A stretch of DNA of 64,000 nt from the NCBI RefSeq assembly GCF_006715175.1, contig NZ_VFMQ01000001.1:310001-374000 (forward strand). The letters are read 5' to 3'. Shown here in pieces: positions 20,089-25,011 of this stretch. The notes under the pieces were generated by a model. It was not told the DNA's origin and made no database searches. It worked only from the letters and a program-made list of their open reading frames with translations. The DNA is from Curtobacterium citreum (GTDB taxonomy: Bacteria > Actinomycetota > Actinomycetes > Actinomycetales > Microbacteriaceae). Numbering within the stretch: the stretch's first letter is position 1; each line of letters begins with the position of its first letter. The translations under genes were made by a program, and so were the position numbers.

Positions 20089-20565
20089 TCAATCGGCGGC
20101 GGAGCCCTCGTGGTCGTCGGGGCCGACGGCCTCGTCCAGGCGCGCACTGACCGACCGCAGCGTGTCCGCGTCCGTCCCCACGGGCCTCCAGAACAGTTCC
20201 TCGAGCGCGCCCGTGTGCGCCCGGATCCCGGCGAGGACCGCGCGCCGCCCGTCCGGCGTCATCTCCACCCAGCTGCCGCGCCCGTCCTGCGGGCAGTCGG
20301 CGCGGACGACCAGACCGCGCGCGACCATGCGCGTCACCTGGTGGCTGACGCGCGACTTCTCCCAGCCGATGCCCGTCGAGATGTCACGGACCCGCAGGCG
20401 GTGCTCGGGGTCGCGGTGGAGGCCGATCAGGATCTCGAACTCGGGGACGGAGATCCCCGCCCCCTCCTGCACCGCCCGGTCGAGGGCCCGGTCGAGCCGT
20501 CGCCAGGCGTCGTGGTACGCGTCCCAGGTGGCCCAGTCGTGGTCACCGCTGCCCTCCGTCGACAT
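20089..20565 (-). CDS. MarR-family transcriptional regulator
   Basis: 158 residues. Winged helix with PEFEILIGLHRDPEHRLRV, recognition region DISTGIGWEKSRVSHQVTRM and the wing RADCPQDGRGSWVEMTPDGR, which includes the conserved D-x-R-G pattern of MarR proteins. ATG 20565 gives a normal length; a longer in-frame start at 20643 would add a non-conserved tail. Divergent from the PutA-like gene with 119 bp between starts. Ligand unknown. Confidence 0.88.
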   Translation of the reverse strand: MSTEGSGDHDWATWDAYHDAWRRLDRALDRAVQEGAGISVPEFEILIGLHRDPEHRLRVRDISTGIGWEKSRVSHQVTRMVARGLVVRADCPQDGRGSWVEMTPDGRRAVLAGIRAHTGALEELFWRPVGTDADTLRSVSARLDEAVGPDDHEGSAAD

Positions 20566-20684
20566 GCCGCTCAGCGTATCCACCGGCGCGTCGGCGTCCA
20601 CCAGGATCATCCGTCCGGACGACCTCCACGGCACGTCCAGCACGCTCCGAGGTGGCGTCGGCGGCTCGGCATACGATCAGGGGC

Positions 20685-23600
20685 ATGCCGAGCGCGCGAC
20701 TGCAGGACTGCACCGACGACGCCGTCGCCCTGGTGCGACGGTGGACGGCGGCGTCCGCGGGACGCAAGCCCGACGCCGGCGCAGCCCGACTGGCCCAGGT
20801 GCTCCGGGACGAGCAGGGCCTCGCCTTCACGCGCGGGTTCCTCGACCGGGTGGTCCGGCCGGAGGACCCGCGGGTCGCGGCACGGGTGCTCGAGCAGGTC
20901 AGCCAGGACGTGCCGGAGGACCTGGCCTGGTACCTCCGCGGCGCGGTGACCCTCGGTGGCGGCTTCGCGACCATGGCGCCGTGGGCCGTGGTGCCGACCG
21001 CGCGCCGGATCCTGCGTCGCGTCGCCGGACACCTCGTCGTCGACGCGACCCCCGCCAAGCTCGGGTCCGCCCTGGCGAAGGTCTGCGGCGCGGGCACCCT
21101 GGTCGAGGTCGACCTGCTCGGCGACGCCGTCCTCGGCAGCGCCGAGAGCGACCGACGGCTGCAGGCGACCGTGGAGCTGCTCGAACGACCGGACGTGGAC
21201 CGCGTGGCGGTCTCGCTGCGCAGCGTCGTGCCGCAGCTCGCGCCGTGGGCCCCCGACCGGACCGTCGAGCGCGCGGTCGACCGGCTCGTGCCGCTGTTCC
21301 GGGCGGCTGCCGCTCCGATGGCGCTCGGTCGGCCCGCCGGCGCGGTCACCCTGCAGGCCGGCCTGCACGCCGACCAGGCCCTGACGATCGCGGTGTTCCG
21401 GGCGCTGCTCGACCGCGACGAGTTCACCGGGCTGCAGGCCGGGATCACGCTCCAGGCCGCCCTGCCGGACACCGCGGCGGCCCTCGACGACCTGACGACG
21501 TGGGCGCAGGAGCGTCGGGCACGCGGTGGCGCGCCCGTCACGGTGCGGCTCGTCAAGGGCGCCGAACTCCCCACCGAACGGGTCGAGTCCGTCCTGCGCG
21601 GCTGGCCGCTCGCCACGTGGGGATCCAAGCGCGAGACCGACACCGCGTACCTCCGGCTGCTCGACGCCGCCCTGACGCCGGAGCGGATCGACGCCGTGCG
21701 GGTCGAGGTCGGCAGTCACAACCTGTTCGACCTCGCGACCGCGTGGGTGCTCGCCGGCCGGCGCGGGGTGGCCGACGGGGTCCGGGTCGCGATGCTGCTC
21801 GGGATGGGCACGGGCACGACCGACGCCGTGCGCCAGGACGTCGGGCCGATCGTGCTCGGCGTGCCGGTCGTGCAGCCGGACCACTTCGACGCGGCCATCG
21901 GGTACCTGGCCCGACGCCTGCAGGAGAACGCCGGTCCCGAGCACTTCGTCGCCGCGATCGGCGCCGGGCCGGTCGACCCCGACGCGCTGGAGCGGCAGAC
22001 CGCGCGGCACCGCGAGGCCCTCGACGCCCTCGACGAGCCGGTGCCCGCGACCCACCGCACCCAGGACCGCCGACAGCCCCTGGGCAGCCCGACGATCCGG
22101 ACGGCCTTCGAGAACGCTGCCGACACCGATCCCTCGACCCCGGGCAACCGCGCGTGGGCCGCCGACGTCCTGAGCCGGGTGCCGTCGTCGCGGCTCGGGG
22201 TGCAGACCCTGCGCGGCGCCCGGACCGCCGACCGGTCGAAGCTCGAGCGGATCGTCGCGCGCACCGCGCAGGCCGGCGTGAACTGGGGTCGCCAGGATCC
22301 AGGGGACCGCGCCGAACTCCTCGACCTGATCGGCCACGAGCTCGCGTCCCGTCGTGCGGACCTGGTCGAGGTGCTCGTCGCCGAGACCGGCAAGACCCTG
22401 ACCGAGGCGGACACCGAGGTCACCCGGGCGGTCGACCTCGCCCACCACGCGGCGGACCGGGCACGGCACCTCGCCGGGCTCGACGGTGACGGCGCCCGCT
22501 TCGTGCCCCCGCGCCTGACCGTCGTCGTCCCGAGCTGGACCGCGCCCGTCGCGATCGCCGCAGCAGGCATCACGGCCGCGCTGGCCGCGGGCAGCGGTGT
22601 CGTCCTCAAGCCCTCGCCGCGAGCCGGACGCTCCGGCGCGGTGCTCGCCGACGTGCTCTGGGACGCCGGGGTCCCGCACTCCCTGCTGCAGCTCGTCGAC
22701 CTCGACGTCGACCAGCTCGGCCGTGACCTCGTGGCGCACCCGACCGTCGACCGCGTGCTCCTGACGGGGACGACCGACACCGCGCGCTCGTTCCGCTGGT
22801 GGCGGGCGGGTCTGCCGCTCACCGCGGCGACGAGCAGCCGGAACACCGTCGTCGTGACGCCGAGCGCCGACCTCGACCAGGCGGCCCAGGACGTCGTGCA
22901 CTCCGCGTTCGGCCAGGCGGGCCAGGACCGCGCCACCGCGCCCCTCGTCGTGCTCGTCGGCTCCGTCGTCGAGAGCGAGCGGTTCCGCCGACAGCTCGTC
23001 GACGCCACCCGGACGCTCCGGGTCGCGTGGCCGCACGACCCCACCGCCCAGGTCGGTCCGCTCGTCTCGGAGCCGAGCGGTGCGGTGCTCCGCGCGCTCA
23101 CCGAGCTCGGACCGGGCGAGTCGTGGCTCGTGCAGCCCGCCCCGCTCGACGACACCGGGCGGCTCTGGTCGCCGGGCATCCGCGACGGGGTCCGTCCGGG
23201 CAGCGCCTTCCACCACGACGTGGCCGCGGCGCCCGTCCTGGGGATCCTGCACGTCGAGACCCTCGAGCAGGCGATCGCGGTGCAGAACGGCCCCGACTCC
23301 GGGCTCGTCGCCGGGCTCCACTCGCTGGACGTCGACGAGGTCGGCACCTGGGTGGCGTCGGTCCAGGCCGGCGAACTCGTCGTCAACCGTCGGACCACCG
23401 GTGCCGTCGTGGGTCGGCGTCCGACCGGCGGCTGGAAGGCCTCGTCGGTCGGTCCCGGCGCCCAGACCGGCGGTCCGCTCGACGTCGCGACGCTCGGCCG
23501 GTGGGAGTCCGTCCCGCGCAGCGTGCACAAGAGCATCCAGCTCACCGGGCTGCCGTCGCGCGTGACGGCCCTCATCGAGGCGGCCCGCAGCGGCCTGTCG

Positions 23601-24263
23601 TTCGAGGAGTTCGACCACGTCCGCGCCGGCGCCCTGAGCGACGTGCGCGCCCGTCAGTCGCTGTACGGCCGCTCGCAGGACCCGACCGGCCTCGGCGTCG
23701 AGCGGAACGTCCACCGCTGGCGTCCCCGGTCGGTCGTCGTCCGGCACGCCGAGGGTGCTCCGACGGGTGCCCTGGTCCGGACGCTCGTCGCCGCGACCTC
23801 GGCGCGCGCCCACGTCCTGCTGAGCACGGCACGTCCCCTGCCCGGCCCCCTCACCCAGCTGCTCGCCGGACCCCGGTCACCGCTCGACGTCGTCGACCAC
23901 CTCGTCGAGTCCGACGAGGACTTCCTGGGCCGTGCGGCGTCCGGCGCCGTCTTCCGCAGCGACTGGAGCACGGGCGACGAGCCGCAGGACGCGCTCGAGG
24001 CCGTGCTCGCCCAGACCGAGGGCCAGGACCGCCCGACGACCGCGGCGTTCGGCGGCCCGGGCGCCCGCATCCGGATCGTCGGGGGCGATCCCCTCGCGCT
24101 CGAGGAAGCCCTCGGCGCGAGCGTGGACGTCGACGTGGTGGACGCCCCGGTCGTCGAGTCCGGCGTCGTCGAGATGCTGCACTACCTGCGGGAGCAGTCG
24201 ATCGCGATCACCGCGCACCGCTTCGGCGACGTCGACCCGGCCTTCGCGGCGCTCCGTGTCTAA
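20685..24263 (+). CDS. putA: PutA-like proline dehydrogenase/P5C dehydrogenase with lost catalytic residues
   Basis: 1192 residues with the complete PutA layout: PRODH barrel (about 30-450), aldehyde dehydrogenase domain (about 500-990) and C-terminal region. In family members the ALDH nucleophile sits in GQKCSA; here the segment reads FGQAGQDRATAP, with Arg749 at the cysteine position. The general-base Glu of AETSGKN is Ala715 (TAATSSRN), and the oxyanion Asn of PWNFP is Thr619 (SWTAP). In PRODH the LDMEEY motif is LQAGLH (catalytic Asp becomes Gln224), although VRLVKGAEL and YLARRLQE persist. The frame is intact over 3.6 kb, so it is maintained as a protein. Motif comparisons are from memory. 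TACGAT at 20673-20678 lies 7 nt before ATG, suggesting a leaderless mRNA. Confidence 0.85.
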   Translation: MPSARLQDCTDDAVALVRRWTAASAGRKPDAGAARLAQVLRDEQGLAFTRGFLDRVVRPEDPRVAARVLEQVSQDVPEDLAWYLRGAVTLGGGFATMAPWAVVPTARRILRRVAGHLVVDATPAKLGSALAKVCGAGTLVEVDLLGDAVLGSAESDRRLQATVELLERPDVDRVAVSLRSVVPQLAPWAPDRTVERAVDRLVPLFRAAAAPMALGRPAGAVTLQAGLHADQALTIAVFRALLDRDEFTGLQAGITLQAALPDTAAALDDLTTWAQERRARGGAPVTVRLVKGAELPTERVESVLRGWPLATWGSKRETDTAYLRLLDAALTPERIDAVRVEVGSHNLFDLATAWVLAGRRGVADGVRVAMLLGMGTGTTDAVRQDVGPIVLGVPVVQPDHFDAAIGYLARRLQENAGPEHFVAAIGAGPVDPDALERQTARHREALDALDEPVPATHRTQDRRQPLGSPTIRTAFENAADTDPSTPGNRAWAADVLSRVPSSRLGVQTLRGARTADRSKLERIVARTAQAGVNWGRQDPGDRAELLDLIGHELASRRADLVEVLVAETGKTLTEADTEVTRAVDLAHHAADRARHLAGLDGDGARFVPPRLTVVVPSWTAPVAIAAAGITAALAAGSGVVLKPSPRAGRSGAVLADVLWDAGVPHSLLQLVDLDVDQLGRDLVAHPTVDRVLLTGTTDTARSFRWWRAGLPLTAATSSRNTVVVTPSADLDQAAQDVVHSAFGQAGQDRATAPLVVLVGSVVESERFRRQLVDATRTLRVAWPHDPTAQVGPLVSEPSGAVLRALTELGPGESWLVQPAPLDDTGRLWSPGIRDGVRPGSAFHHDVAAAPVLGILHVETLEQAIAVQNGPDSGLVAGLHSLDVDEVGTWVASVQAGELVVNRRTTGAVVGRRPTGGWKASSVGPGAQTGGPLDVATLGRWESVPRSVHKSIQLTGLPSRVTALIEAARSGLSFEEFDHVRAGALSDVRARQSLYGRSQDPTGLGVERNVHRWRPRSVVVRHAEGAPTGALVRTLVAATSARAHVLLSTARPLPGPLTQLLAGPRSPLDVVDHLVESDEDFLGRAASGAVFRSDWSTGDEPQDALEAVLAQTEGQDRPTTAAFGGPGARIRIVGGDPLALEEALGASVDVDVVDAPVVESGVVEMLHYLREQSIAITAHRFGDVDPAFAALRV

Positions 24264-25011
24264 CGCGTCCGGACCCGCCCGGCCCGGGAACCTGCGCCGG
24301 CTCGTCGCCGACGGTCTCGTGAACGCCCGCGACCTCGGCGGCCTGCCGCGACGGGACGGCACGACGACCCCGACCGGCCGCGTGTTCCGCTCCGAGAACG
24401 TCGACCGGCTGACGGCGGAGGGCTGGCGCGCGGTGCACGACGCCGGGATCCGGACGATCGTCGACCTCCGGGCGCCCGACGAGCGTGCACGGGACGAGCG
24501 CCCGCGGCCGTCCTGGGTCACGACGGTCGCGATCGACCACGACGGTCGCGACGACGCCCCGGCGTTCTGGGACCGCTACTGGGAGAACGGTCTCGTCGCG
24601 ACGCCGCTGTACTACGGCGCGCACCTCCGCGAGCTGCCCGAGCGCACCGGGGCCGCCCTCGCCGCGATCGCGGACGCGGGCCCGGGTGGCGTGCTGTTCC
24701 ACTGCGCCGCCGGCCGGGACCGCACGGGCGTGGTCGCGCTCGCCCTCCTGACGATCGCCGACGTCGAGCCCGAGGCGATCGTCGCCGACCACCTGGTCAG
24801 CGTCACGGACCTCGCCGCCCTGTGGGCGACGCTCGGGGTGCCGGACCAACAGGTGCGCATCGACGCGCTCTGCGCGGAGCACGGCACGACGTCCGCCGAC
24901 GCGTTCCGCGCGGCGCTGGCGGCGTTCGACGTCGACGGGTTCGTCGCGTCGTCAGGACTCGACGACGACCGACTGGAGGCCCTGCGCACGTTCCGCGCGC
25001 GCGTCACGTGA
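24256..25011 (+). CDS. Tyrosine/dual-specificity phosphatase (Y_phosphatase3 type)
   Basis: 251 residues. N-terminal LVNARDLGGLPRRDG and TPTGRVFRSENVDRLT are typical of the SIW14/Y_phosphatase3 group; active-site loop HCAAGRDRTG has nucleophile Cys150 and Arg156. Such enzymes act on phosphotyrosine, phosphoinositides or other phosphoesters; the substrate here is not known. GTG start overlaps the last 8 nt of the PutA-like gene, so the two are translated together, an unexplained pairing. Confidence 0.88.
   Translation: MSNASGPARPGNLRRLVADGLVNARDLGGLPRRDGTTTPTGRVFRSENVDRLTAEGWRAVHDAGIRTIVDLRAPDERARDERPRPSWVTTVAIDHDGRDDAPAFWDRYWENGLVATPLYYGAHLRELPERTGAALAAIADAGPGGVLFHCAAGRDRTGVVALALLTIADVEPEAIVADHLVSVTDLAALWATLGVPDQQVRIDALCAEHGTTSADAFRAALAAFDVDGFVASSGLDDDRLEALRTFRARVT

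Follow-up and report, generated by a model that had tools for sequence, protein, structure and literature searches.

The window analysed here is a stretch of 64,000 nucleotides from Curtobacterium citreum (NCBI RefSeq assembly GCF_006715175.1, contig NZ_VFMQ01000001.1, positions 310,001 to 374,000 of the forward strand), and our subject is one gene within it, putA1, whose product is a homologue of the two-headed metabolic enzyme PutA that appears, from its alignment with canonical relatives, to have had both of its active sites destroyed. On translation the frame is open for 1192 codons, and Pfam places Pro_dh at residues 136-423, followed by Aldedh at 512-923; these matches, the structure model and the fold match give the order proline dehydrogenase (PRODH) barrel, aldehyde dehydrogenase (ALDH) domain, C-terminal domain, which is the architecture of PutA. 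The full length and domain order claimed in the initial annotation of this DNA are thereby borne out. The best sequence match in the PDB is 5ux5 (E 5.5e-215) from Corynebacterium freiburgense, which we take to be a class 3B PutA protein and from which the window's PutA1 differs in that the catalytic residues of both halves are replaced. The fold of the putA1 product is predicted to be intact, with an alignment between model and 5ux5 that starts at residue 3. No N-terminal ribbon-helix-helix DNA-binding domain, the mark of a trifunctional PutA, was found in a Pfam scan taken to E 10, which returned Aldedh and Pro_dh only; HMMER filters can drop weak matches.

The putA1 product was aligned with 120 homologues and with the canonical PutA that its own genome encodes, and residues were assigned from that alignment. 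The five core residues that we follow (PRODH Lys and Asp; ALDH Asn, Glu and Cys) and the 18 tabulated positions were the analyst's choice. All five core residues are replaced: Arg749, Ala715, Thr619 and Gln224 fall on the catalytic Cys, Glu, Asn and Asp, just as the initial annotation had it, and the alignment adds Ser177 at the PRODH Lys. Around the catalytic Cys the protein reads AGQDRATAP where canonical proteins read AGQKCSAAS, and no substitute Cys or Glu is seen in the alignment at the active-site motifs. Part of the PRODH site is kept, including Y407, R410 and R411 of the Tyr-x-x-Arg-Arg motif described in one report (PMC6017737). Two Phe positions, which we take to be an aromatic box of the BjPutA type, are also altered (F to A620 and F to T914). 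In E. coli numbering the PRODH Lys (S177 here) is presumably K329 and the Asp (Q224 here) D370, with R431, Y437, Y552, R555 and R556 as what we take to be further site residues of that protein. The ALDH Glu is the general base, and catalytic roles are assumed here for both the Asn and the Glu. The position of S177 is taken as homologous to Lys99 of Thermus thermophilus PRODH. That Lys99 binds the proline carboxylate is described in one report (PMC6017737), and another describes, for BjPutA, binding of the ligand carboxylate by residues flanking the catalytic Cys and a C792A variant in which glutamate semialdehyde dehydrogenase activity is gone and PRODH activity kept (PMC5786444).

The open frame, which had been offered as an argument against decay, is there; it is weak evidence alone, because this GC-rich DNA also carries an antisense open reading frame of 1068 amino acids overlapping putA1 (window positions 20607-23813, minus strand), most likely a by-product of the high GC content.

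Table 1. Features of the putA1 locus, in window positions
Feature	Position	Strand	Description	Basis
MarR-family regulator gene	20089..20565	-	divergent from putA1	Pfam MarR_2 6.9e-12
TACGAT	20672..20677	+	-10-like box, 7 bases before putA1 ATG (leaderless-type spacing)	
putA1	20685..24263	+	1192-aa class 3B-like PutA, catalytic residues replaced in both active sites	translation, Pfam, PDB match, structure model
S177	21213..21215	+	replaces PRODH Lys	alignment
Q224	21354..21356	+	replaces PRODH Asp	alignment
Y407-x-x-R410-R411	21903..21917	+	kept substrate-binding motif of PRODH helix alpha-8	alignment
T619-A620	22539..22544	+	replaces ALDH Asn-Phe	alignment
A715	22827..22829	+	replaces ALDH Glu	alignment
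D748-R749-A750	22926..22934	+	replaces Lys-Cys-Ser (catalytic Cys and neighbours)	alignment
C-terminal domain	23490..24260	+	residues 936-1192	boundary set by analyst
Tyrosine phosphatase gene (Y_phosphatase3)	24250..25011	+	directly downstream of putA1; start codon provisional	Pfam 2.6e-42

The same genome (G000) holds the second, canonical putA that the initial annotation had proposed to look for (G000:C1:1530859-1534245). Its product, PutA2, belongs to the same family as PutA1 and is 49% identical to it over residues 10-1087. PutA2 has all examined catalytic residues in place and a divergent LysR-type gene, as against the degenerate PutA1 with its divergent MarR gene. Both loci occur in 66 of the 66 Curtobacterium genomes searched, and PutA2 keeps its Lys, Asp, Asn, Glu and Cys in 65 of them, the 66th being truncated with its three readable residues kept. 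The last part of PutA2 in G042 (locus L135) is off register against its close relative in G043 in two blocks, as if through local frameshifts or an assembly error.

At the PutA1 locus, 63 of the 66 Curtobacterium copies are full length (those of G009 and G021 are split and that of G049 is cut by a contig end, and these three are left out of the counts); all five core residues remain in 17 of the 63, and one or more are missing from the other 46. The Cys has gone from 34 copies, 33 of which also lack the PRODH Lys or Asp, and the Cys position is variously R, A, S, T, P, V or G. With 17 of the 63 copies canonical, the window's protein has canonical enzymes among its orthologues and stands at an extreme of a graded series. 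When the catalytic columns are removed before the tree is built and losses are treated as irreversible, there were at least 11 independent losses of any core residue within the genus; the minimum is five events for the Cys, six for the Lys and four for the Cys together with Lys or Asp. The initial annotation had pictured a single altered protein: the pseudoenzyme is supported, and what that picture missed is the recurrent, graded nature of the loss and the canonical orthologues.

The pattern extends beyond Curtobacterium in a family sample of 199 genomes, in which some copies were read, plus three further genera searched more fully. Losses in PutA1-type copies are seen in 16 of 16 Frigoribacterium genomes (P0126, a protein named Frigoribacterium from outside that 16-genome clade, is canonical), in 9 of the 23 genomes of genus g49 whose copy was fully read and in 2 of 10 of genus g76; by eye from a quick tree these represent one, five and two further events, for a total of about 19. 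One of the Frigoribacterium PutA1 genes (G265, locus L311) has a match that ends at about 720 residues in a single-contig genome, with further similarity in another frame, possibly a true gene break or a sequencing error.

Among genomes whose copies were read, losses occur in none of 37 with a single copy and 73 of 110 with two; copy status here means match counts at E 1e-120, the genomes are related, such that a Fisher test overstates the significance, and several of the single-copy genomes are incomplete (G296, G300 and G301 at 64 to 81%; G087, G103, G165, G232 and G245 at 83 to 88%). No copy in the PutA2 clade shows a loss, and each inactivated copy sits beside a canonical second copy, that of G045 being partly readable. 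Two or three PutA matches per genome are widespread in the family. Horizontal replacement of PutA1 is a conceivable source of the mixed states; trees of PutA1 and PutA2, compared by eye, agree in many groups, not all.

The degenerate copy is still strongly constrained. Over 12 within-lineage pairs of inactivated PutA1 genes, chosen like all our pairs by the analyst from the tree, the pooled Nei-Gojobori (NG86) dN/dS, or omega, is 0.153 (bootstrap 0.126-0.175), as compared with 0.082 for seven canonical pairs. Because dS by this method saturates in so GC-rich a genus, omega was estimated again by maximum likelihood (ML) under a codon model with F3x4 frequencies, on ten of these inactivated pairs (the two left out are G026/G027 and G042/G043, and G000/G026 is reported apart). 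The ML medians for the inactivated pairs are 0.043 for PutA1 and 0.025 for PutA2 of the same pairs, and for the seven canonical pairs 0.021 and 0.040. By ML, omega is higher for PutA1 than for PutA2 in 9 of 10 inactivated pairs and in none of the 7 canonical ones (p 1e-4 in a Mann-Whitney test of the ratios); by NG86, from which the PutA2 of G042 is excluded, the counts are 11 of 11 and 1 of 7. Since the order of the two paralogues flips with loss, selection is tighter on whichever copy would be expected to do the catalysis. Likelihood ratios against omega = 1 range from 112 to 873 in the ten pairs, whose members have the same or almost the same losses, and no pair for which dN/dS was computed reaches 1. 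With neither a broken frame nor a dN/dS near 1, putA1 does not look like a pseudogene; rather, catalytic residues have been lost beside canonical homologues under purifying selection, which for the window's own lineage is seen in distant pairs only.

Constraint is unevenly spread along the inactivated proteins: NG86 omega is 0.114 in the N-terminal region, 0.241 in the PRODH barrel, 0.256 in the linker, 0.113 in the ALDH half and 0.100 in the C-terminal domain, the last being the lowest of the five with an interval that overlaps those of the ALDH half and N-terminal region. In PutA2 the C-terminal domain gives 0.192 and 0.245. For RcPutA, one report assigns this domain a role in ALDH activity and channelling (PMC5293562).

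At the active sites themselves, pN/pS in nine within-clade pairs is 0.36 at the mostly lost invariant sites and 0.09 at other invariant sites; within inactivated clades the core sites reach 0.32 (7 changes in 45 codons), above other classes. Along nine branches of recent loss the figures are 0.67 for core and 0.09 for other invariant sites, and 13 further active-site positions show no more rapid change than variable sites do. Positive selection for destruction of the active sites was considered and set aside, as even on branches picked for a loss the core value is only 0.67, so that release to near-neutral change suffices.

What is held is clearest in the 34 strongly degenerate copies, those with three to five core residues lost. 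The comparison set comprises 79 canonical sequences, from which the PutA2 of G042, G009, G045 and G065 are excluded. Of the 422 columns invariant in that set, 177 are unchanged in all 34 degenerate copies and 60 are kept in under half; 30 of the 48 columns kept in less than 40% lie, by the analyst's count, in the tabulated motif stretches. Invariant arginines are retained at a mean of 96%, and R1169, E1170, Q1171, R1179 and G1181 near the C-terminus are kept in 34 of 34. At the lost positions there is no consistent replacement residue across degenerate copies. It looks like catalysis has been released and the scaffold held. Within the window's lineage, the protein (P0001) differs from a 98% identical relative at 22 of 1192 residues, none of them catalytic or in a named motif. 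At residue 294, Asn in the canonical PutAs examined here, three genomes (G030, G033 and G051) have Tyr; the position presumably corresponds to a Tyr in E. coli PutA.

We consider it rather likely that putA1 encodes a folded PutA pseudoenzyme, kept for an older, scaffold-dependent and non-catalytic role after the loss of both active sites. PutA1 would be inactive, judging from its sequence, and its task is probably something other than catalysis. Two PutA genes, a MarR-linked putA1 and a LysR-linked putA2, would have been present in the ancestor of Curtobacterium and probably in earlier ancestors too; as PutA2 could sustain proline catabolism, the active sites of PutA1 would have been freed from selection and repeatedly lost, the gene being retained through a role of the folded scaffold residing mainly in the N-terminal region, the ALDH half and the C-terminal domain. 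The presence of PutA1 in all 66 genomes despite so many active-site losses suggests that selection defends a non-catalytic function which would predate the losses. Most likely, we think, PutA1 acts through binding of a regulatory or structural kind; it may, for instance, be an inactive subunit that pairs with PutA2. Such a partner fits both the canonical PutA2 beside each degenerate copy read and the constraint seen in the ALDH half and the C-terminal domain. The initial annotation had preferred changed function to decay, and the canonical putA2, the predicted intact fold and a dN/dS below 1 side with it.

The genes around putA1 bear on the main rival explanation, that PutA1 is a ligand sensor working with the divergent MarR regulator, binding flavin adenine dinucleotide (FAD) or proline and reporting it without turnover. 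We prefer 20565 over 20643 as the probable start of the MarR gene. In Curtobacterium, 61 of 65 putA1 loci have a divergent MarR gene (one exception, in G049, is cut by a contig end) and no putA2 locus does; all 16 Frigoribacterium genomes likewise have one divergent from PutA1. For LysR the Curtobacterium pattern is reversed, with a divergent gene at 66 of 66 putA2 loci and at none of the putA1 loci. A sensor would also be served by R288, R411 and G292, kept in all 34 strongly degenerate copies, by H345, N346, Y407 and R410 in P0001, and by the precedent of Ralstonia solanacearum PutA, described in one report as a proline- and cofactor-responsive regulator (PMC9132996). Nonetheless we think this explanation unlikely. 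The PRODH barrel, the would-be ligand site, and the linker are the least constrained parts of inactivated copies (omega 0.241 and 0.256), N346 is retained in only 29% of the 34, the Pfam scan shows no ribbon-helix-helix domain, and canonical PutA1 genes have the MarR neighbour just as the inactivated ones do. Around the g49 PutA1 copies, which also show losses, no MarR gene was found in the 1-1.5 kb read, and MarR is hence unlikely to account for everything.

Only within Curtobacterium do MarR and LysR separate cleanly: elsewhere in the family several single-copy PutAs most similar to PutA1 carry a divergent LysR (L172, L174 and L175 among them), and L186 has both. As for the sensing unit of phosphatase and MarR regulator first proposed, the MarR half is common at these loci, but the phosphatase lies in the flanks of just 26 of 65 Curtobacterium putA1 loci, some flanks being short, and a conserved putA1-phosphatase unit is rejected. 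The TACGAT box stands at 61 of 65 putA1 starts (44 of 48 genes with losses or fragments, 17 of 17 canonical) and may be a promoter element.

That PutA1 now catalyses a different reaction, or retains a little activity, is less probable still. Speaking for it are purifying selection, the retention of D370 or the Cys in many copies and, among the 34 strongly degenerate copies, that of K642 (79%) and G695 (all); yet no new catalytic residue is fixed among the copies (the Cys site alone is R, A, S, T, P, V or G), and the core pN/pS of 0.32 within inactivated clades exceeds that of other classes. Plain relaxed decay of a redundant gene, its frame surviving by chance in GC-rich DNA, could draw on the rarity of stops that the 1068-residue antisense frame attests, on the faster change of PutA1 than PutA2 after loss and on three split loci, but it is disfavoured to the point of being very improbable by frame retention at 63 of 66 loci (one of the others, in G049, cut by a contig end), by an omega far below 1 in ten pairs (likelihood ratio 112 to 873) and by the 177 of 422 canonical-invariant columns unchanged in all 34 strongly degenerate copies.

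Several observations weigh against a pseudoenzyme retained for an older non-catalytic role. The window's own branch is less constrained: G000-G026, the nearest pair with DNA for this lineage and a distant one, has an ML omega of 0.084 (likelihood ratio 585 against omega = 1), and NG86 omega against seven genomes is 0.33-0.53 with dS near saturation. Some PutA1s have a single core residue changed, such as N to S in G013, G030 and G031, and these may still be working. Split loci in G009 (a 65% complete genome), G021 (790 contigs) and G265 mean that putA1 may be dispensable in places. Two homologues from outside these genera and from outside the copy-number tally also show changes: P0203 has all five core residues but the Asp changed, and one protein among P0067-P0121 has Lys to Gln. 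Finally, as the two copies are 49% identical with different regulator genes, physical pairing with PutA2 is only a guess.

Pseudoenzymes, repeated ones included, are already known; for PutA we found no report of one in searches of the open-licence PMC literature. According to one report, fungal Dis3L2/Ssd1 lost its active site at least four times with a second function retained, under a bifunctional-intermediate model (PMC8097288). PutA1 resembles that case in the repeated loss with retained function and in the argument that the function came first. It differs in being a bacterial two-headed metabolic enzyme, rather than a eukaryotic nuclease, in its roughly 19 losses and in having a canonical paralogue beside each inactivated copy read. 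Prozyme, a catalytically dead paralogue through which trypanosome AdoMetDC is activated, is likewise an inactive protein alongside an active one; there a physical complex has been shown (PMC5201418), for PutA1 it would be conjecture.

Transitions from enzyme to pseudoenzyme have usually been inferred from one or a few events. Here a single genus offers at least 11 parallel ones, with anything from one to all five core residues changed and a canonical paralogue in each genome, and so allows a direct test of whether a non-catalytic function came first and which function it is. For the Microbacteriaceae as a whole we suggest, tentatively and as something short of an even bet, that PutA1 has an ancient non-catalytic function, most plausibly as a regulatory or structural partner of PutA2, and has undergone some 19 parallel conversions to a pseudoenzyme. 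If true, the intermediate stages are still alive and the selective load has measurably been handed to the paralogue.

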